This document shows, piece after piece, positions 11,411-57,399 of a DNA stretch of 64,000 bases. Every line of letters starts with the position of its first letter. The first letter of the stretch is position 1. This DNA comes from an uncultured Arthrobacter sp. (lineage in GTDB: Bacteria; Actinomycetota; Actinomycetes; Actinomycetales; Micrococcaceae). The DNA lies in the NCBI RefSeq assembly GCF_947493765.1, contig NZ_CANLSZ010000001.1, positions 186,001 to 250,000 on the forward strand, written 5' to 3'. A model generated the notes under the pieces. That model did no database searches. It saw nothing but the letters and a program-made list of their open reading frames with translations, and was not told where the DNA came from. The translations under genes were made by a program, and so were the position numbers.

Positions 11411-13276
11411 TCAGCGGTCCGCCACCGACAGCACGGCGTCGCGGAAGTCGTTGCAGCGCCGCACCTCGGCCAGGACAGGGCGCAGCACGACGTCGTCGGC
11501 CACCCGGGCGCACGCGTCGAGCAGACGCCGCCGCACGCGCGCCGCCCGGCGTCGTGCCCCCCAGCGCGCCAGCACCGCAGCGGCGACGCCGAGCAGGATC
11601 CCCGCACCGAGGCCCCCGAGAATGAGCAGCGTGGGGACGGGGAACCCCTCCACGCGCGGCACCTCGGGTACGGGCAGCTGCAGGAACGCGAGGACCGCCA
11701 GGACGCCGAGCCACCCCACTCCGCCCACGAGCGCCGCGAGGGCGACCCACTGGAGGACGCCGAAGAGCCCCCACCACCGCCGTCTGCCCGTCTCCAGATC
11801 GGTCCCCGTGACAGCCGAGTCGAGGGCGTCCGCGAGATCGTCCGTGGTGCTGCGCGCGGCGTCCCGGACGGAGGTCCGCCAGGGCTCGACGACGTCGCCG
11901 CTCGCCGCCGTGCCGAAGATGCGCAGGGCGTGGTCCACGGTGGCACGCTGCGCCGGCTGGGCCCGTGCGATCGAGGACCGCCGGACCTCGGGGAGCACCT
12001 CCTGCCGCCGCAGGTTGAGCCGGCGGAGAGGATCCGGCCGGAAGCCGGCCAGCCAGCGGGTGACCGGCCAGCCCATGGCTGCGTGGGCATCGCGCCGGTA
12101 GCTGCTCCGCACGGCGTCCGCGACGACCGGCACCCCTGCAGCCTGGGCGAGTTCGTCCGCCAGCACCGCCCGCGCATCGCCCGACGGTGCGGCCACCACG
12201 CCGTCCGCGACGAACGGCAGCAGGTCCGCTGCCGCGCGGGCGGCGTCGGCCCTGATCCGCAGTGTCGCCGCCGACCGTCCCTGCGCGAAGTCCCGGATGA
12301 TGCCGGCGAGCGCCTCGATGCCCTGTCCGGTCTGCGCCGAGACAGGGACCACCGGTACCCCCTGCAGTCCCCCGTCCGCGAGGATCCCGGTCAGGGAGGC
12401 CAGGACGGCCTCGAGATCGGCCTGGTCTAGCCGGTCCGCCTGGTTGAGGGCCACCACGGTGACGGCCTGGTGCGTCGCGAGATCCCGCAGGAAGCCGTGG
12501 TGCAGTGCGGCGTCGGCGTACTTCTGCGGATCCACCACCCAGACCAGCACGTCCACCTGGCCCGCGAGCCGCAGCACCACGTCCCGGTGGGCCTGCGTGG
12601 TGGAGTCGAAGTCGGGCAGATCGAGAAGGATCAGGCCCGCGCCGCGGATGTCCGCGCCCTGCGTGCCCGCCGATGTGGTCGGCTCGCCCGACGGTTCCTG
12701 TGGACCGGACACCGCCGCGTCACGCCGCCTGCGGCCCAGGATGCCGCGCAGGCCCCCCGCGCGCCGCGGGGTCGGCGTCCCGGGGTCCTTCCCCGGGCGG
12801 CACTCGGCCGCAGGGTGCGACCGGGGCGCGTCACCGGAGGTCCCGTCGGTGCTGCCGGTGCTGCCGGGGGTGGCGTCGGCAGCACCGGCGACGAGCGGGG
12901 CGCCGTCGGGCAGCTCGACACGCGAGCCGACCCCGAGCCAGTCGAGCAGCTCCCCGCTGCCCTCCCGGCCCCAGACCATTGCGAGGGGTTCGGAGGTCGT
13001 GGGCCGCCTGGCAGCGACACGCGCCGCGGTGGTGCCGCTGAGGGCGTTGCCGAGCGAGGACTTGCCGCTGCCGGTGGGTCCGAACAGTCCCACGACCGTG
13101 TGCTCGGCGGACAGTGACCGGCGGCCCGCCGCATGATCCAGCACGATGCGCAGGCGATCGAGGACGTCCTCCGGCACGCGGTCCTGGCCGAGCTCCCGGG
13201 CCCGGTGCAGTCCGCCGAGCACATCGGTGAGCTGCGTCGCCGGCGTCACCTCGTGGCGGCGCGTCGTCCCGCTCAC
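11411..13276 (-). CDS. Dynamin-like / YfjP-type membrane GTPase, second of pair
   Basis: This 621-residue protein has a GTPase domain. G1 is GPTGSGKSSLGNAL, G3 DLPDFDS and G4 NQADRLDQ. Between G1 and G3 is an insert of roughly 90 residues rich in Gly, Ser, Thr and Pro. The C-terminal third holds two strongly hydrophobic segments (WVALAALVGGVGWLGVLAVLAF and LLILGGLGAGILLGVAAAVLA), then a basic helical tail. It starts at a GTG overlapping the stop of the preceding GTPase gene (GTGA). Tandem large GTPases with paired membrane segments resemble bacterial dynamin-like proteins, but the biological role is unknown. Confidence 0.8.
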   Translation of the reverse strand: MSGTTRRHEVTPATQLTDVLGGLHRARELGQDRVPEDVLDRLRIVLDHAAGRRSLSAEHTVVGLFGPTGSGKSSLGNALSGTTAARVAARRPTTSEPLAMVWGREGSGELLDWLGVGSRVELPDGAPLVAGAADATPGSTGSTDGTSGDAPRSHPAAECRPGKDPGTPTPRRAGGLRGILGRRRRDAAVSGPQEPSGEPTTSAGTQGADIRGAGLILLDLPDFDSTTQAHRDVVLRLAGQVDVLVWVVDPQKYADAALHHGFLRDLATHQAVTVVALNQADRLDQADLEAVLASLTGILADGGLQGVPVVPVSAQTGQGIEALAGIIRDFAQGRSAATLRIRADAARAAADLLPFVADGVVAAPSGDARAVLADELAQAAGVPVVADAVRSSYRRDAHAAMGWPVTRWLAGFRPDPLRRLNLRRQEVLPEVRRSSIARAQPAQRATVDHALRIFGTAASGDVVEPWRTSVRDAARSTTDDLADALDSAVTGTDLETGRRRWWGLFGVLQWVALAALVGGVGWLGVLAVLAFLQLPVPEVPRVEGFPVPTLLILGGLGAGILLGVAAAVLARWGARRRAARVRRRLLDACARVADDVVLRPVLAEVRRCNDFRDAVLSVADR

Positions 13277-15036
13277 GCCTCCGCCCCGACGGCGCCGCCC
13301 TGGGCGGGCAGGAGCGTGCGCAGCCGCCGCGCCAGGACCCGGAGGGTCTCCGCCGGGGTCTGCCGGGCGAGGGGCTCCAGCGCGCAGTCGAAGTCCGCGC
13401 GCTCGCGCTCGAGGAGTCCCTCCACGCGACGGGAGAGATTGCGCCGGGCCACGACGGCGAGGCGGCGGACGGCGTCGTCACCGAAGATCGCCTCGAGGAG
13501 CTTCTGGCCGGCGACGGCGGACACGCCGGCCACCCCGATCTCGCCCCCGGTCAGTCCGCCGGTCGAGGCGAAGACCACCACCATGAGGGACACCGCGATC
13601 CCGTTGACGCCGAAGGAGAGCATCCGGGCGGTGAAGCGCTTGCCCGCACCCTCGGCCTGCACGAGCTCGAGGAGGTCCTGCTGCCACGCCCGGATCTCCC
13701 GGGCCACCTCGGCGGGAAACGTCTCGGAGCGCCAGGCCGGTACTTCGGCGAGCAGGGCTGCTCCGGCCTGCTCCGCCCGCCACCGGCGACGCGCCGTCTC
13801 GTCGGCGCGGGCGGCCTGTTCCACGATGACGCTCTGCAGTCCACTGCCGATGGCGTCGGCGACGGTGGCGGCCGGGGCGGGGCGCCCCGTGAAGAACCCC
13901 GTGATCCGCTCGCGTACGCGACCCACCCTCGTTTCGAGGGCGCGCATGAACTCCCCCGTGCCGACGAAGTCCTGCCAGCGGGCCAGCACCTCACCGCGCA
14001 GCAGCCGGCCGTCCTCCGTCGCGGCGAGGACACCCGCCAGCGCATCCCGGTAGGCGCCGTCGACCGCTGCGCGCAGCGCGTCGCCCACGGTCTGCTCCTG
14101 CTCGGCGGCGGCAGCGATGCCCTCGATCCGGGTGGCCAGCGCGTTCATGGCTCCGCGGACCGTGCGTCGCGCGATCTCGCGGCGCCCGTCGGCGTCCGCT
14201 GCCAGCGCCCGCAGCCAGCGTGTCATGGGCTCCACGAGCTCGTGCGGCAGCATGCGGTCGGCTCCGAGCGCCACCTCGGGCAGCACGAAGATGGGGGCGT
14301 GTCCGAGGTTCTCGGCGGAGAGCAGGGTCAGCAGGTCGCTCCTGATCTCCTCCTCGACCCCGGGTGGCACCCGGTCGAGGACGACGGCGACCAGCACGTC
14401 GCGTCGTCCTGCCTCGGCCAGGAGCTTCCACGGGACGGCATCGGCGTAGCGGTTGGCGGTGGTGACGAAGATCCACAGATCGGCGGCCGCGAGCAACTGG
14501 GCGGCGAGTCGCCGGTTCTCGTCGGCGATCGAGTCGACGTCGGGAGCGTCGAGGAGGGCCAGGCCCGGCGGGAGGGAGGGCTCCGGACGCAGCAGCAGGG
14601 TGTCGCCCGGCGACGTCGGCGCCTGGTGCGCACGGCTCCCGTCATCGTCGCTGAGCCGCACCCGGCTGAGGGACGGGAGGATGCGTGCGTCCTCGAACCA
14701 GCCGGCGTCGTCGGGGTGATGGAGCAGGAGGGGCTGCCGGGTGGTGGGGCGGACCGCCCCGGTGACGGAGACCGGGCGCCCGGCGAGGGCGTTCACCAGT
14801 GTGGACTTCCCCGCGCCGGTCGACCCGCCCACCACGGCCACGAGCGGCGCATCCACACTGGCCAGTCGCGGCAGGATGTAGTCGTCGAGTTGCGCTCGGG
14901 CGCCGGCTGCGGCGTCGCGGCCCGCGGCGGAGCTGGCGAGCTCCAGGGGAAAGACCAGATCACCGAGCGCAGCACCGACCTCACGCAGCGCGAGGGAGAT
15001 CCCGCGGGCATCGCCCACGGGCGGAGGTGTGCTCAT
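13273..15036 (-). CDS. Dynamin-like / YfjP-type membrane GTPase, first of pair
   Basis: The 587-residue product has a P-loop GGSTGAGKSTLVNALAG around residues 70-86, a G3-like DAPDVDS and a probable G4 in VLDRV. A long helical, charged middle follows, with a hydrophobic hairpin near residues 470-515 (GIAVSLMVVVFASTGGLTGGEIGVAGVSAVAG). The ATG at 15036 is preferred because residues upstream of it are unrelated low-complexity sequence. Its stop overlaps the start of the next GTPase gene, so the two are translated together and probably act as a pair at the membrane. The family is broadly related to dynamin-like proteins; its cargo is unknown. Confidence 0.8.
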   Translation of the reverse strand: MSTPPPVGDARGISLALREVGAALGDLVFPLELASSAAGRDAAAGARAQLDDYILPRLASVDAPLVAVVGGSTGAGKSTLVNALAGRPVSVTGAVRPTTRQPLLLHHPDDAGWFEDARILPSLSRVRLSDDDGSRAHQAPTSPGDTLLLRPEPSLPPGLALLDAPDVDSIADENRRLAAQLLAAADLWIFVTTANRYADAVPWKLLAEAGRRDVLVAVVLDRVPPGVEEEIRSDLLTLLSAENLGHAPIFVLPEVALGADRMLPHELVEPMTRWLRALAADADGRREIARRTVRGAMNALATRIEGIAAAAEQEQTVGDALRAAVDGAYRDALAGVLAATEDGRLLRGEVLARWQDFVGTGEFMRALETRVGRVRERITGFFTGRPAPAATVADAIGSGLQSVIVEQAARADETARRRWRAEQAGAALLAEVPAWRSETFPAEVAREIRAWQQDLLELVQAEGAGKRFTARMLSFGVNGIAVSLMVVVFASTGGLTGGEIGVAGVSAVAGQKLLEAIFGDDAVRRLAVVARRNLSRRVEGLLERERADFDCALEPLARQTPAETLRVLARRLRTLLPAQGGAVGAEA

Positions 15037-15129
15037 CGCTCCATCATGCCAGCCGCCCGGTGGACGGCCGGGACCTCCGCCCGAGGCCGTGCGACCCGCC
15101 CCGGAGGCGCACTGTTCCACCCGGAACGA

Positions 15130-18598: not shown

Positions 18599-18680
18599 GA
18601 CGCCCAGCCTAGCGCTCGGCCTGGCCGGGCCCGCACTCTGCGTCGGGCGACGGCGAGCATCCTTCCGGGACGCCCGGCGG

Positions 18681-18702
18681 CTGATCGGCGGCTGATCGGC
18701 GG
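18681..18702. repeat. Tandem duplication of an 11-bp unit
   Basis: CTGATCGGCGG occurs twice in direct succession at the edge of the AT-richer island, immediately left of the hairpin that ends the small-peptide transcript. It could be a replication-slippage scar. No function is apparent. Confidence 0.6.
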
Positions 18703-18710
18703 TTAAACAG

Positions 18711-18753
18711 ATACCGCGGACACTCCCTCCCCAGTGGAGGGTGCCCGCGGTAT
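18711..18753 (-). terminator. Terminator hairpin of the small-peptide gene
   Basis: Outer arms ATACCGCGG and CCGCGGTAT pair perfectly, and inner CTCCC/GGAGGG tracts extend the stem. On the minus strand the hairpin is followed by CTGTTT. It lies 64 bp beyond the stop of the 46-residue peptide gene, so that gene looks like an independent monocistronic unit. Confidence 0.75.
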
Positions 18754-18817
18754 ATGTCTGCTCAGGCCAAGCGAATGGCCCGATGCCTTACAAGTGGCCC
18801 CTTACGGCCGAGAGTAC

Positions 18818-18958
18818 TCAGAAGGGCCAGTAGCCAACCCGGTCCGTAGAGGAGACGGGCGCCGTGACGCCCGACTTGGAAGGTGCAGCGTTGGCAGCCG
18901 CCGCGCTTCCAGTTACCAGCAGCGCTGCGAGGAGGAGGGAGGACGTGATGCGCTTCAT
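18818..18958 (-). CDS. Small secreted peptide precursor (46 aa), candidate signalling peptide
   Basis: The ATG is preceded by AAGGAAG at ideal distance (AAGGAAGTCTC-ATG). The product starts MKRITSSLLLAALLVTG, a basic N-terminus and hydrophobic core. A type I signal peptidase site follows (ANA then A, after residue 24). A short mature peptide of about 22 residues ends STDRVGYWPF. It has no lipobox or cysteine. Its own terminator lies downstream. The gene is divergent from a TPR-protein gene, 197 bp away, in an AT-richer island. The layout (secreted pro-peptide beside a TPR receptor-like protein) recalls Phr/Rap systems. The function is inferred; I recognise no homologue. Confidence 0.7.
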   Translation of the reverse strand: MKRITSSLLLAALLVTGSAAAANAAPSKSGVTAPVSSTDRVGYWPF

Positions 18959-19135
18959 GAGACTTCCTTTTCTAAATGGTCCAGATGGCAAGGTCCCTTA
19001 TAACAGCTCGGAACCTACAAGTACTGTAAGCCACACCAGTCACTTTGGTAACATTGGTGGTCATCTTTTTTCAGTGCCGGTCGCAGCTAGCAGAAACCCT
19101 CGCCAAGCCGAATACTGGAGGCGGAAGGGATCACG

Positions 19136-19159
19136 ATGCCGAGACTGAAGGTGCGATGA
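19136..19159 (+). CDS. Seven-codon leader ORF overlapping the TPR gene start
   Basis: An ATG at 19136 is preceded by a strong purine-rich site (GGAGGCGGAAGGG). It encodes MPRLKVR and stops at a TGA that overlaps the ATG of the TPR gene (ATGA at 19156-19159). This may be a translational coupler or regulatory mini-ORF. It may also be fortuitous, since the TPR gene has its own GAAGGT 3 nt before its ATG. Confidence 0.35.
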   Translation: MPRLKVR

Positions 19160-20199
19160 CGTATAGGGAAGCCTCGGGACAGCGACTCCTACTCGAGCTT
19201 CAGGCTCGAGATGCATGGAATCACCGGGACTATGGCGAGGCCCGGCGATTCGCTGAGCAGCTTGCGGCCATGGTGTACGAGGAGGCCGAGAGCGAGGCGT
19301 GGTGGAACGCGAAGTTCCTGATAGCTGAATGCCTCCGCAAACAGGGACACATGGCCGAGTCCCGAGACGTGGCAACCGAACTTGGACGACACCCGCTGAC
19401 TGTGTCGTCTGAAGCGCTCAGTGCTCGCGTTGCAACGCTCGCAGCGTTCGCTCTGCAGGGCAGCGGCCATCTTGCTGACGCAATCCAGTCAGCTCGCCAA
19501 GCCGTCGAGACGGCGGCATCCCAGCCGGATCATGCCAACATCGCAATCGAAGCGCGAAATGCTCTGATCGCTGCGCTCGCCGAGAGTGGACAGCTCGAGG
19601 AGGCATGGGATCAGAGCGTCAAACTCGTCGAGCTTTTGGAACGTGAGCCCTACAGCACCTACGCCGGCCAGTCGTATTGGGCTATCGGAAACGTCGCATT
19701 CCTCCTCAAGCGAATCGATGACGGCGTTACCTACCATCAACTTGCGGCAGATAGCTTGTCCCCAACCAACGATCTCGATCTCTGGGCTCGGTTTAACCGA
19801 GGATCAGCTCAGTTCAGACTGTCGGCCGGGCTTTCAGGACCTGAGACTCTTGCCTGCATCGAGCGGGCCGAGCTAGCGAGCTCGATCGTCGGAGGAACAG
19901 CGCGCGATCAACTTGAATTGAGACTGAATCGCGCTCAGTGGATGGTACTTATCGGACAAAGCCAGGGCGCTGTAGCCCAACTCAAGAGCATTGTGGAACA
20001 GCGGCAGCTTTTAGCTCCTCAGATTGCCGCTCAGGCATACCTTCTGCTCGGCGAAGCTATTGCGCTCAGCGGACTCGGCGACAAGGCAGAAGCCACCACG
20101 AATCTCGAACTCAGTGAGGAGCTCTTCCTCCAGTCCGGGGCCGAGGACCGGGCAGCAGCTGCCCGGGAGTTGATCGAGAGCCTCCGACGTCCGGAGTAA
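19156..20199 (+). CDS. TPR-repeat protein, Rap-like candidate receptor for the adjacent peptide
   Basis: The 347-residue, fully helical protein is built from tetratricopeptide-like pairs throughout, for example AWNHRDYGEARRFAEQLAAM, YWAIGNVAFLLKRIDDGVTY and AYLLLGEAIALSGLGDKAEA. There is no helix-turn-helix, signal peptide or membrane segment, so it is a cytoplasmic all-TPR protein. The ATG at 19156 has GAAGGT upstream; a longer frame back to a TTG at 19045 adds no recognisable domain. Base composition and codon use are clearly less GC-biased than in flanking genes, suggesting transfer. It is divergent from the secreted-peptide gene. Rap, PlcR, NprR and AimR bind secreted peptides through TPRs; this role is inferred here. 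Confidence 0.75.
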   Translation: MTYREASGQRLLLELQARDAWNHRDYGEARRFAEQLAAMVYEEAESEAWWNAKFLIAECLRKQGHMAESRDVATELGRHPLTVSSEALSARVATLAAFALQGSGHLADAIQSARQAVETAASQPDHANIAIEARNALIAALAESGQLEEAWDQSVKLVELLEREPYSTYAGQSYWAIGNVAFLLKRIDDGVTYHQLAADSLSPTNDLDLWARFNRGSAQFRLSAGLSGPETLACIERAELASSIVGGTARDQLELRLNRAQWMVLIGQSQGAVAQLKSIVEQRQLLAPQIAAQAYLLLGEAIALSGLGDKAEATTNLELSEELFLQSGAEDRAAAARELIESLRRPE

Positions 20200-20205
20200 C
20201 GGGGG

Positions 20206-20230
20206 CGGGCCCCTCCCCACGGCGGGCCCG
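20206..20230 (+). terminator. Hairpin directly after the TPR gene
   Basis: CGGGCCC and GGGCCCG pair across an 11-nt loop, starting 7 bp after the stop codon. There is no U-tract. A second, longer hairpin follows at 20252-20304. Confidence 0.55.
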
Positions 20231-20251
20231 AATGCCCTAGAGTAGTCGTCG

Positions 20252-20304
20252 GACCCTGACCGGTCTGGGCGATGTCCCCCATTTCTCCCAGACCGGTCGG
20301 GGTC
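20252..20304 (+). terminator. Long 18-bp stem-loop between the TPR gene and the GGDEF-EAL gene
   Basis: GACCCTGACCGGTCTGGG pairs with CCCAGACCGGTCGGGGTC (one T-G wobble) around a 17-nt loop and is followed by TTCTCAT. It most likely ends transcription from the TPR gene and insulates the downstream GGDEF-EAL gene. Confidence 0.75.
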
Positions 20305-20409
20305 TTCTCATGCACTCCACTTCCGGCCAGCACGACGCCGATACGCAGTTTCTGCGCGGCGAATGATCATGCAGCCGCTCGGCGTTTTCCTGGAGGTAGG
20401 CTCAATCCG

Positions 20410-21981
20410 ATGAGTGCAGACAAGGATCCTCGGCTCGCGATGCTGGTCGACAGCATCGTGCGGCTCTCCAAGGGAGAGCTCAGCAGTCGCCTTGAGCCCT
20501 CCAGCGCCCGGGACGAGGTGGATGCCGTCATCGCCGGTGTGAACCTCCTCGCCGAGGAACTCCAGCAGGTGTACGAGCAGTTCGAGAAGCGGGTGGAAAG
20601 CCGCACGGCCATGCTCCGCCAGGCCCACCTGGACATGATGAAGATGGCCATGTCCGACGCCCTCACCGGCGTCGCCAACCGGGTGGCCCTGATGGACGGC
20701 ATCGAGGAGGCCCTGGGGCAGGCGGTCGACGGAGCGCCGCCACCGGCTCTCCTGCTCCTGGATCTCGACAGTTTCAAGAACGTCAACGACCGCTTCGGTC
20801 ACGATGCGGGCGATCGGGTACTGCAGGAAGTGGCGCGGCGCCTGGCCGGAGTGGTGCGCGAGAGCGACATCGTGGCGCGACTCGGAGGGGACGAATTCGC
20901 CATCCTCCTTCCCGGAGCGACCATGGATCTGGCCCTTCAGGTGGCCCGGCGCGCCGTGGAGGCCCTCGGCCAGCAGATCCGGCTCGAAGCCGTCGACATC
21001 CACTGCCGGGCCAGTATCGGCGTGCGTCTGGGCACGCCGAACCAGAGCGCCGAGGAGCTGCTGCTCGACGCCGACACGGCCATGTACGCGGCCAAGCGCG
21101 AGGGCCGCAGCATCATCAAGATCTTCCAGCCGGTCATGCTCTACTCGCGCCAGCTCCGCAGCCAGATGGCCACCGAGCTGCGCGATGCCATCAGGTCCGA
21201 CGAACTGGTGCTGCACTACCAGCCGGTGGTGGAGCTCGCGACCAACCGGATCCTCGGTGTGGAGGTCCTCGTCCGCTGGCAGCACCCGATCCGCGGACTG
21301 ATCCCGCCCGACACGTTCATCCCGCTCGCCGAGGAGATCGGGGTCATCCATGACCTCGACCGGTGGGTGATGTCCACCTCCCTGCGCGAGCTTGCTCGGT
21401 GGAGGCGGGAGCTCGGGCTCGACGACGACTTCCAGCTCCGGGTCAATCTCTCCGCCGTCGAGCTCAAGCAGCTCGACCTCGTGGACTACGTGCGCGCCCT
21501 GCTGCGCGAACTCGAGGTGCCGGCCCGCAGTCTGGTCGTCGAGATCACCGAGACCGCGATCGTCACGCGCGGGGAAGTGGAGATGTATTCGCTCCTGAGC
21601 CTGCAGCAGCTCGGGGTGGGGATCGAGATCGACGACTTCGGAACGGGATACTCGTCGATCAGCTATCTCCGCGAGCTGCCGGTCAGCATGGTCAAGGTGG
21701 ATCGGTCCCTGCTCGCCGAGCTCAACACTCGACCAGGACAGCTCCAGTTCGTCGCGGCGATCCTGCAACTCATCCGGGCCGCCGGGCTCGAGGCGGTCTT
21801 CGAGGGGATCGAGACGCAGGAACAGGCCGATCAGCTGAGGGCGCTCGGCTGCAACAGCGGTCAGGGATTCTTCTTCTGCCATCCCATGGCCGCCGACGAG
21901 ACGGCCGCGCTCCTCGCGGGTACCCGGTATCTCGGGCTCGGCGAGGCGATCGACGACCCGGAGATCACCGTCTCCCACTGA
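20410..21981 (+). CDS. GGDEF-EAL protein (cyclic di-GMP turnover)
   Basis: The 523-residue protein starts at ATG 20410 behind GGAGG. An N-terminal helical region resembles a HAMP/coiled-coil linker (LVDSIVRLSKGELSSRLEP). Then comes a GGDEF domain with intact RLGGDEFAILLPG, and an EAL domain. In the latter the signature reads GVEVLVRWQHP, that is EVL instead of EAL. Other catalytic elements remain: NLSAVELKQ, EITETAI, IDDFGTGYSSISYL, MVKVDRSLL and EGIETQEQ. Neither a sensory domain nor a membrane span is present. It may make or degrade c-di-GMP; the direction cannot be predicted. Confidence 0.93.
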   Translation: MSADKDPRLAMLVDSIVRLSKGELSSRLEPSSARDEVDAVIAGVNLLAEELQQVYEQFEKRVESRTAMLRQAHLDMMKMAMSDALTGVANRVALMDGIEEALGQAVDGAPPPALLLLDLDSFKNVNDRFGHDAGDRVLQEVARRLAGVVRESDIVARLGGDEFAILLPGATMDLALQVARRAVEALGQQIRLEAVDIHCRASIGVRLGTPNQSAEELLLDADTAMYAAKREGRSIIKIFQPVMLYSRQLRSQMATELRDAIRSDELVLHYQPVVELATNRILGVEVLVRWQHPIRGLIPPDTFIPLAEEIGVIHDLDRWVMSTSLRELARWRRELGLDDDFQLRVNLSAVELKQLDLVDYVRALLRELEVPARSLVVEITETAIVTRGEVEMYSLLSLQQLGVGIEIDDFGTGYSSISYLRELPVSMVKVDRSLLAELNTRPGQLQFVAAILQLIRAAGLEAVFEGIETQEQADQLRALGCNSGQGFFFCHPMAADETAALLAGTRYLGLGEAIDDPEITVSH

Positions 21982-55683: not shown

Positions 55684-57399
55684 GTGAACACTGCCGCCGC
55701 GCGCCGCCCCGGTCGCCGGAGCACCGCCGGAGCCCGCTCCCTCGCCGCCGCGCTGGCAGCCTCCCTCACCCTGGTCTCCTGCACCGCGCCGGAGGAGGTA
55801 CCGCAGCCGGTCAAGAGCAGCACGGTGGTGGAGAACGACCCGGGCACGTTCCGCTTCGGGACGGCCGCCGATCCGCGGACCCTCGACCCGGCGCTCGCCG
55901 TCGACACCGAGTCCTACCGCGTGACCCGCCAGCTGATGCAGGGACTGGTGGGTGTCGATCCCCTCACCTCCGAGCCCGTTCCCCTCCTCGCGGAGTCCTG
56001 GACGGAGCAGGACAGCGGCCGCGCCTACGACTTCACCCTGCGCGAGGACGTCCTCTTCCACGACGGACGGCCGTTCGACGCCGCCGCAGTGTGTGCCAAC
56101 TTCGAGCGCTGGTACACGATGCCTGCCTCCGACGGGCTCGACCGGTCGCGCCTGCCGTTCAAGGACGTCTTCAGGGCCTTCTCGGACCAGCCCGAGCTGA
56201 GCCTGTACGAGGGGTGCACGGCGACGTCGGAGTACACCCTGACGCTGCAGCTCGCCCGGCAGATCACGTCGCTGATCCCCGCGCTGGCGGCCCCGGGCTT
56301 CGCCCTCGGTTCGCCCGCGGCCCTCGCCTCCGATCAAGCCAACGAACTCAGCCACAGCAGGGGCGGGACGCTCATCTCCAGGTTCGGGGCTGCGCCCGTG
56401 GGCACCGGACCGTTCGAACTCGTGCGCTGGGAGGCCGGCGAGGTGGAGCTGAAGTCCTTCGCCGACTACTGGGGCGACTCCGGGGACGTGGACCGTGTCA
56501 TCCTCACCACCATCACCGACGCGGGAGCACGCGCACGGGCGCTCACCTCGGGGCGCATCGACGGGTACGACTTCGTCTCGGTCGACAGCGCGGTGGATCT
56601 CGCCCGCAACGGCGTCCAGTTCCTGCAGCGCGACCCCTACTCCGTGCTCTACCTCGGTCTGAACCAGGACTTCCCCGGCGTGGACGACGTCCTCTTCCGG
56701 CGGGCCGTGGCCCACGCGATCGACAAGCGCGCGCTGATCGACGGCCGGTTCCTCGACGGGACCAAGCCGGCCCGCTCCTTCCTGCCCGAGAAGCTCGGGA
56801 TCAGCACGGAGGACGTCACGAACTACGGGTACAATCCCGCCCGCGCCAGGGACCTCCTGGAGCAGGCCGGCTACGACGGGGAGGAGCTCCCCTTCTACTA
56901 CCCGCGCTCCGTCTCCCGTCCGTATCTCCCCGCGCCGGAGAAGGCGTACGCCGAGCTGAGCCGCCAACTCGTGGAGGCCGGCTTCAACATCAGGCCGGTG
57001 CCGATCGAGTGGGGCGAGGGCTACGTCGACGCCGTCCAGCGGCCGGGCGACCGGGCCTTCCACCTCCTGGGCTGGAGCGGCACCTACCAGGATCCGGCCA
57101 ACTTCGTCGGCGCCCTCTTCGGCAGCTCCAGCGCCGAGTTCGCCTACGACGACTCCCAGCTGGAGAGCAAGATCACCCGGGCAGGCAGCCTCCCTGTCGG
57201 GCAGGAGCGATCCGATGCCTACGCGGACATCAGCGCGCAGCTCTCGGAGCGGATCCCCGCCGTGCCGCTGGTGCTGCCCATCTCCGCCCTCGCCATGAGC
57301 CCGCGCGTGGTGAGCTATCCCGTCAGTCCGGTGATGAACGAGGTCTTCAACAGGATCGACCTGGCCGACGTGGAGGCCGACAGCAGCCGCCCGGGCTGA
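55684..57399 (+). CDS. ABC transporter substrate-binding lipoprotein, family 5 (peptide/opine type)
   Basis: The 571-residue precursor starts at a GTG with GGAGAT upstream. Its signal ends in a lipobox (TLVSC, cysteine at residue 33). The mature protein is SBP_bac_5: FGTAADPRTLDPALAVDTESYRVTRQLMQGL, AESWTEQDSGRAYDFTLREDVLFHDGRPFDA, and VGTGPFELVRWEAGEVELKSFADYWG. It would capture oligopeptides or related solutes for an ABC importer. No permease or ATPase gene is adjacent, so it is an orphan binding protein. Confidence 0.92.
   Translation: MNTAAARRPGRRSTAGARSLAAALAASLTLVSCTAPEEVPQPVKSSTVVENDPGTFRFGTAADPRTLDPALAVDTESYRVTRQLMQGLVGVDPLTSEPVPLLAESWTEQDSGRAYDFTLREDVLFHDGRPFDAAAVCANFERWYTMPASDGLDRSRLPFKDVFRAFSDQPELSLYEGCTATSEYTLTLQLARQITSLIPALAAPGFALGSPAALASDQANELSHSRGGTLISRFGAAPVGTGPFELVRWEAGEVELKSFADYWGDSGDVDRVILTTITDAGARARALTSGRIDGYDFVSVDSAVDLARNGVQFLQRDPYSVLYLGLNQDFPGVDDVLFRRAVAHAIDKRALIDGRFLDGTKPARSFLPEKLGISTEDVTNYGYNPARARDLLEQAGYDGEELPFYYPRSVSRPYLPAPEKAYAELSRQLVEAGFNIRPVPIEWGEGYVDAVQRPGDRAFHLLGWSGTYQDPANFVGALFGSSSAEFAYDDSQLESKITRAGSLPVGQERSDAYADISAQLSERIPAVPLVLPISALAMSPRVVSYPVSPVMNEVFNRIDLADVEADSSRPG

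Follow-up and report, generated by a model that had tools for sequence, protein, structure and literature searches.

The 64,000-nucleotide stretch of an uncultured Arthrobacter sp. genome analysed here (contig NZ_CANLSZ010000001.1, positions 186,001 to 250,000; hereafter the window) contains a gene for a 46-residue secreted peptide with a C-terminal Trp-Pro core, divergent from a gene for a protein built of tetratricopeptide repeats (TPRs). We consider it likely that the two are a peptide pheromone and its receptor, working like the RRNPP systems of Firmicutes, in a branch of receptors that has no helix-turn-helix (HTH) domain and whose likely output is cyclic di-GMP (c-di-GMP). A first-pass annotation, made from the window's sequence, had proposed a peptide-signalling pair at this site; the observation itself is confirmed here, and the interpretation is supported, its core claim being strengthened by the follow-up. 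The proposed pairing of peptide and receptor rests on comparative genomics.

A secreted peptide gene divergent from an all-TPR protein

The peptide gene (Table 1) translates to MKRITSSLLLAALLVTGSAAAANAAPSKSGVTAPVSSTDRVGYWPF. The precursor has a basic N-region, a hydrophobic core and an ANA-A cleavage site; the Sec-type call was made from these sequence features, without SignalP. Together with its ribosome-binding site, this is the tiny secreted gene that had been described. Among 16 peptides of equal length, the mean frequency of nonsynonymous differences (pN) is 0.172 and that of synonymous differences (pS) is 0.512, an uncorrected ratio of 0.34, and such purifying selection indicates that the open reading frame (ORF) is a real, constrained coding gene. 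Thirteen public proteins match the peptide, and every named one is labelled 'hypothetical'. In the window's own clade the core follows DR[VI][GN]xWP[FYG], while other relatives carry a repeated KxGNWPD.

The receptor gene is divergent from the peptide gene, with 197 bp between the two starts; the ATG at 19156 is the receptor start that agrees with relatives, and longer in-frame starts also exist. Pfam gives weak TPR matches to the 347-residue protein (best E 0.007, below the cut-off) and finds neither a DNA-binding domain nor any other recognised domain in it, and AlphaFold models it as an all-helical solenoid of 18 helices (pLDDT 92, pTM 0.84), in agreement with the earlier description of an all-TPR protein. 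Among the 50 structural matches listed for this protein, the natural proteins of bacteria, phages and plasmids are Rap proteins and NprR, which bears out the likeness to Rap to that extent. The model of its HTH-bearing relatives (HTH-TPR) aligns with Rap, NprR and AimR across nearly the full length.

The RRNPP_detector survey sought a TPR receptor of 250-500 residues with an adjoining secreted pro-peptide of 10-100 residues (PMC10075063). The window pair fits these descriptions, the receptor showing no signal or membrane segment by eye; the spacing of 197 bp compares with a reference range of -50 to 191 bp given in the survey (PMC10075063). An N-terminal HTH is missing from the window receptor and throughout its clade, and relatives outside the clade carry one. 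Such a domain belongs to the DNA-binding RRNPP subfamilies and not to Rap.

Conservation of the pair

Our genus set comprised 35 genomes of the Arthrobacter agilis/echini group, the window's own included. The receptor was found in all 35, and in none of 22 genomes of other families (E<=0.001). The regions around the genus receptors contain 43 receptor genes or pieces, of which 40 have enough upstream DNA; contig ends truncate the other three. Of the 40 receptors, 39 are accompanied by a divergent secreted small ORF that is built alike and contains Trp-Pro, at 197-249 bp from start to start. The cores vary around the fixed Trp-Pro (DRVGYWPF, DRVGSWPF, DRVNNWPG, DRINNWPY, TDVNRWPH and others). 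As a background, the same kind of ORF finder assigned a divergent secreted small ORF to 40 of 222 ORFs of at least 250 residues in the window and genus regions; receptors facing a Trp-Pro peptide make up 33 of those 40 (one of them counted twice), the remaining 7 being other ORFs. An Arthrobacter-type locus with 59% receptor identity also stands in a record labelled Vibrio cholerae strain 35D (WNZI01000017.1; our L095/L043), which looks mislabelled.

A scan of named genomes with the single receptor protein returned nothing; with a receptor alignment it returned 224 matching stretches, of which the best 80 were kept. At loci L115-L167, which belong to these 80, a divergent secreted ORF bearing a Trp-Pro core is present in all 53, one of which (L117) repeats a genus locus; the other hosts are Paenarthrobacter, Pseudarthrobacter, Arthrobacter, Sinomonas and an unclassified Micrococcaceae bacterium. 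The test set beforehand was whether the small ORF would prove unconserved beside homologous TPR genes; it was run, and both the ORF and its Trp-Pro core are kept.

Repeated cores and receptor clades

In many relatives the precursor holds two to four copies of its Trp-Pro core (KVGNWPD, IGWWPN, IGNWPDPM). One branch of the genus repeats the core 2-4 times per precursor, as in ...AAKVGNWPDGSTTTKVGNWPDGSTTTKVGNWPDTYSTNVGNWPD (G021) and ...SSITKIGDWPNKIGDWPNIGDWPN (G008). Among L115-L167, precursors opposite all-TPR receptors mostly contain one or two copies of IGWWP[ND], and those opposite receptors with an N-terminal XRE-type HTH mostly contain 2-4 copies of (I/V)GNWPDPM or a near variant. At least two Trp-Pro after residue 20 occur in 28 of 67 precursors beside entries labelled all-TPR and in 39 of 41 beside HTH-TPR entries, a count that leaves out L170, whose precursor has one.

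Seven genomes carry tandem pairs of full receptors, and both peptides are readable in five of them (G002, G004, G017, G021, G034). In all five, the peptide opposite the upstream receptor ends in [LM]ID[DN]WP[HN], and the one opposite the downstream receptor has KxGNWP[DG] repeats. The two kinds of tandem receptor fall in two clades of the receptor tree; thus, peptide type follows the receptor clade and not the genome, which would be the pattern expected of ligand-receptor pairs.

Absence of the HTH and linkage to a GGDEF-EAL gene

In a tree of 116 receptors, a single clade unites the 71 without HTH, and its neighbour is a clade of HTH receptors; under midpoint rooting, distant HTH receptors fall outside both. 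One further entry labelled HTH-less by pattern (L191) is wrongly labelled, as the HTH-TPR model matches the gene from position 1. Of 73 entries labelled all-TPR with data, 69 are followed on the same strand by a HAMP-GGDEF-EAL gene, as are 0 of 44 HTH-TPR entries; the entries are not independent, since they include seven two-receptor genomes and some near-copy loci. At L190 and L192 the gene is on the same strand upstream of the receptor, beyond the peptide gene, and it was not seen at L191, which is counted among the 73. Nor was one found in four 14-kb regions around HTH receptors or in 20 regions around an orphan paralogue described below. The window enzyme has GGDEF, EVL and DDFG motifs and no membrane segment by eye, and these motifs suggest that activity may be possible in either direction. 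Absence of the HTH, taken with the GGDEF-EAL linkage, points to c-di-GMP control as the likely output of the window branch, a proposal that we regard as evenly balanced.

Between receptor and GGDEF-EAL gene, 18 Paenarthrobacter-type loci have 2-23 bp, and 18 genomes of the window clade have 95-525 bp (210 bp in the window, with a hairpin inside); in other loci the gap is about 0.4-0.7 kb, often with a small gene in it. Such a gene belongs to DUF7793 (SpoIIAA/STAS-like) by Pfam at L264:6151-6579 and L060:11607-11993, and similar ones were seen, by look only, in the gaps of L119, L127, L134, L170, L178 and L179. Four long-gap loci were inspected, and in each the gap is filled by two larger genes; by Pfam, these are a CBM5/12 protein and a family-2 glycosyltransferase at L058:8532-12653 and L060:7307-11567. 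The two are possibly an exopolysaccharide module; the CBM5/12 protein of L058 has a GH18 match just below the cut-off, and another part of the window genome encodes a homologue 78% identical to the glycosyltransferase. At L260 and L264, receptor and GGDEF-EAL gene are kept and none of the window's other neighbours tested was found, L260 carrying a GAF histidine kinase instead of the window's outer neighbours.

Relatives beyond the family

HTH-TPR genes with comparable peptides extend further. In another family of the order, MIAKATRAIAVLTLAAFALVPTVGGSWPTSQDPTVGGSWPTSQDPTVGGSWPTVLDAS, with three copies of PTVGGSWP, is encoded beside an HTH-TPR gene (L183), and a peptide ending RMSDTWPA was found at L185. 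On a plasmid of Streptomyces sp. NBC_01006, WP_331742133.1, with three DIGWP copies, is divergent from the HTH-TPR protein WP_331742130.1, and on plasmid SGLP1 of S. globisporus C-1027, WP_158514079.1, with DVEWP and EVEWP, is one gene away from the HTH-TPR protein WP_010056305.1. At E<=1e-12 the HTH-TPR profile has matches, some over the HTH only, in 42 of 386 order genomes and, in a class sample, in 61 of 296; at E<=1e-8 the all-TPR profile has matches in 18 of 297 order genomes and, in a phylum sample, in 3 of 296.

From the better HTH-TPR matches we fetched 31 distant loci (L228-L258) and examined 30 (L247 was skipped) for small ORFs with a signal-like N-terminus and a ribosome site within 800 bp of the HTH-TPR gene. 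Such an ORF lies upstream in 23 of 30 and downstream in 4 of 30. All 23 have at least one upstream ORF with Trp-Pro, Trp-Asn or Cys-Cys after residue 25 (for example PDWPGMCC, LNWPKCC, TLDWPWI and GATGCCRMAV), and two of the four downstream ORFs end in VWCC; these motif classes were picked after inspection, so the unbiased contrast is 23 versus 4. No small ORF was found in the 800 bp upstream at L236, L238-L242 and L245. Several small secreted ORFs beside these distant genes end in or near Cys-Cys (...PDWPGMCC, ...SSDCC, ...VWCC) and are possibly a second pheromone type. The distant HTH-TPR protein of L250 matches the NCBIfam NsdA family, below the cut-off; a search for NsdA together with tetratricopeptide returned no paper in the open PubMed Central literature.

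Viral contigs, plasmids and phages gave no relative of the window receptor (two pattern matches, neither confirmed). HTH-TPR relatives do occur on Streptomyces plasmids, only the HTH matching in one search, and a search for phage relatives gave one record matching over the HTH only, no full-length phage relative being found. The window genome itself (G000 contig 10, L086) and its genus relatives (L068-L087) contain an orphan receptor paralogue with XRE-type HTH and TPRs. It was considered as the peptide's partner and stays a lead; an adjoining Trp-Pro peptide is absent in 20 of 20 loci, and the paralogue may listen to the same peptide. At L075 a small downstream ORF near the paralogue has an internal Trp-Pro and looks spurious.

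Base composition, hairpins and intergenic elements

The first-pass annotation had described a low-GC island bounded by hairpins and acquired as a unit. The low GC is real (59.4% from 18,711 to 20,199 against 70.7% in the window, within the lowest 0.1% of equal-size windows), and both hairpins are present (Table 1). Acquisition of the island is rejected: an FAA hydrolase gene accompanies the locus in 30 of 33 genus regions and the GGDEF-EAL gene in 31 of 33, and such constancy of neighbours leaves acquisition as a unit unsupported; moreover, receptor GC is usually below that of the flanks (28 of 34 genus receptors tested). The terminator claimed for the peptide gene stands as a strong hairpin and fails on the T-tail: a scan of 18600-20450 gave no T-tailed terminator and no sigma-70-type promoter, and neither hairpin passes.

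Upstream of the peptide gene lies a conserved 28-bp element, GTAAGCCACACCAGTCACTTTGGTAACA, which on the minus strand reads TTACCA-N17-TACGAT in relatives and TTACCA-N17-TACAGT in the window, with an unusually conserved spacer. It looks like a promoter with a constrained spacer, one that the sigma-70 scan did not call, and suggests that some factor controls the peptide gene locally. Only in the DRV/DRI clade does the element stand out strongly; it weakens outside that clade. With up to 3 mismatches allowed, the whole window genome has a single site, so no regulon can be read from it, and the regions around the orphan paralogue gave no match better than 12 mismatches. Of 31 HTH-type loci among L116-L167, 15 have a palindrome, ACGAGTCGGATTCGT, immediately before the peptide gene, possibly an autoregulatory operator; with up to 1 mismatch allowed, the window genome has no copy of it and two matches to the reversed control pattern. 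An Rfam search gave no match.

Table 1. Coordinates of the features discussed, as positions of the window
Feature	Position	Strand	Description
Pro-peptide gene	18818..18958	minus	46 aa; Sec-type signal peptide, residues 1-24; mature end STDRVGYWPF
Ribosome-binding site of peptide gene, AAGGAA	18964..18969	minus	AAGGA-like sites also in relatives
Codons for C-terminal core DRVGYWPF	18821..18844	minus	residues 39-46; candidate pheromone region
All-TPR receptor	19156..20199	plus	347 aa; no HTH
HAMP-GGDEF-EAL protein	20410..21981	plus	523 aa; longer start 20272 possible; proposed output partner
Strong hairpin 3' of peptide gene	18705..18763	minus	terminator-like; -37.3 kcal/mol, z -6.5
Strong hairpin between receptor and GGDEF-EAL gene	20251..20305	plus	-42.9 kcal/mol, z -7.4
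Conserved 28-bp element before peptide gene	19026..19053	plus	GTAAGCCACACCAGTCACTTTGGTAACA
SBP_bac_5 oligopeptide-binding protein domain	55972..57132	plus	one of six in genome; candidate importer, putative link

Elsewhere in the window, 13273-15120 (minus) encodes a dynamin-family GTPase, with a 621-residue ORF at 11411-13276 directly downstream.

Proposed mechanism and alternative explanations

In the mechanism we propose, the precursor would leave the cell through Sec, as its signal peptide suggests, and the C-terminal Trp-Pro segment, DRVGYWPF or a shorter part, would be released by cleavage outside the cell, re-imported by an oligopeptide permease (Opp) and bound in the concave groove of the cytoplasmic TPR protein. 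Relatives with an HTH probably regulate transcription from the promoters of their own peptide genes. The window branch would have lost its HTH, if the midpoint-rooted tree is right, and its receptor may modulate the GGDEF-EAL partner or another target, perhaps acting via c-di-GMP on exopolysaccharide or biofilm. More broadly, the actinobacteria may hold a widespread pheromone family of their own, with Trp-Pro or Cys-Cys cores, often repeated, and neighbouring HTH-TPR receptors, from which one Micrococcaceae branch lost the HTH and was rewired to GGDEF-EAL, such that the re-imported peptide sets c-di-GMP and exopolysaccharide; we give this wider scenario an even chance.

Several observations weigh against the signalling interpretation or parts of it. 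The support consists of genes and sequences, with binding, processing and import predicted. The TPR fold is generic: eukaryotic LGN outscores Rap as a structural match of the window receptor, and APPBP2, APC/C and MalT do so for the HTH-TPR model. Against solved proteins the all-TPR profile has no sequence match, and the HTH-TPR profile matches PlcR (residues 6-60) and ComR chains over the HTH only, the latter being HTH-only constructs, and otherwise synthetic TPR/PPR proteins. On common descent with known RRNPP receptors, then, natural sequence matches are confined to the HTH and fold matches are shared with unrelated TPR proteins. In the phylum sample, the all-TPR profile had relatives only within the order. 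The first receptor of G028 is the sole genus exception without a peptide, and no recognised peptide was found at L181, L182, L184, L191, L193 and L197, nor at L236, L238-L240 and L245; a stricter finder gave none at L209 and L218, and it also missed L210, which has one. For the GGDEF-EAL link, no such gene is in reach at L126, two receptors share one in seven genomes, the distance exceeds 1.1 kb in 18 entries, and for HTH loci the sequence covered mostly ended about 1.1-2 kb downstream. In the window, the strong hairpin between receptor and GGDEF-EAL gene means that the two may not form one transcript there.

Three other explanations were weighed. The peptide could act outside the cell, as a surface, antimicrobial or interspecies factor, with the TPR protein only a regulator or protector of the producer and neither re-import nor binding taking place. 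That the peptide is secreted and contains Trp, that its linker is variable and that import is only deduced would suit this account, which we nevertheless judge unlikely: the match of peptide type to receptor clade, tandem pairs included, fits receptor and ligand better, such peptides recur beside HTH-TPR genes, the core is short and often repeated, and the annotated genus-conserved neighbours are metabolic, tRNA-synthetase, dynamin-like and GGDEF-EAL genes. Leaders of ribosomally synthesized and post-translationally modified peptides (RiPPs) do not usually carry a Sec signal peptide, and this counts against the precursors being RiPP substrates whose Trp-Pro or Cys-Cys core is enzymatically modified, the TPR protein regulating or recognising the product. 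ATP-grasp genes flanking the pair in Streptomyces sp. NBC_01006 and an acyl-carrier-protein gene between peptide and receptor on SGLP1 argue for such modification, but no modifying enzyme is among the annotated neighbours of the window, L058, L060, L260 or L264, and we find it quite improbable.

The third explanation makes the all-TPR protein no more than a scaffold or regulator for the GGDEF-EAL enzyme, with the secreted peptide as an independent neighbour; in our estimate it is very improbable. The receptor is linked to the GGDEF-EAL gene almost as tightly as to the peptide, and in Vibrio vulnificus RcbA/RcbB a TPR protein controls a GGDEF partner, a diguanylate cyclase, encoded beside it (PMC12282931). 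Yet peptide and receptor stay paired while other neighbours change between genera, and HTH-TPR homologues keep the peptide without a GGDEF-EAL gene in reach. The Vibrio system also differs in that the cyclase itself carries a TPR domain, and the abstract of that report does not mention a secreted peptide (PMC12282931). A pheromone and its receptor remain the preferred explanation of the pair.

Relation to known systems and significance

A close counterpart is Rap-Phr of Bacillus, whose genes are usually co-directional. Here the genes are divergent, the host is a soil actinobacterium and the core is Trp-Pro; no sequence similarity to a solved Rap was detected, and the locus is linked to GGDEF-EAL. 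Rap proteins dephosphorylate or block a response regulator, whereas the neighbour of the window receptor is the GGDEF-EAL gene, no response-regulator partner having been identified. PlcR-PapR, NprR-NprX, Rgg, ComR and AimR belong to a different phylum, only the HTH is recognisable by sequence in the actinobacterial HTH-TPR receptors, and the actinobacterial precursors are mostly multi-copy. Several pheromone copies per precursor are also described for phi3T and phi105, phages of Bacillus subtilis whose Phr pro-peptides are duplicated in tandem (PMC11343458); here up to 4 copies occur, in actinobacterial genomes.

Our search found no earlier report of such pairs in open PubMed Central papers, a scope outside which preprints and most subscription papers lie. 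The RRNPP_detector survey, by its own description, searched Firmicutes and viruses only, and it presents the signals of Actinomycetota as typically small molecules (PMC10075063); intracellular peptide quorum sensing is treated as a trait of Firmicutes. What is likely to be new here is RRNPP-like signalling in actinobacteria, with Trp-Pro cores and a probable c-di-GMP output. The recurring pairs, often with a repeated core, point to an unrecognised form of bacterial cell-to-cell signalling. Precursor and receptor pairs across the class, with their obvious short repeated cores, offer ready-made synthetic ligands for tests, and the Streptomyces plasmid pairs, lying near ATP-grasp and acyl-carrier genes, may be handles on biosynthetic clusters. 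If the interpretation is true, loss of the HTH together with a fixed GGDEF-EAL neighbour would join a pheromone receptor directly to second-messenger turnover.

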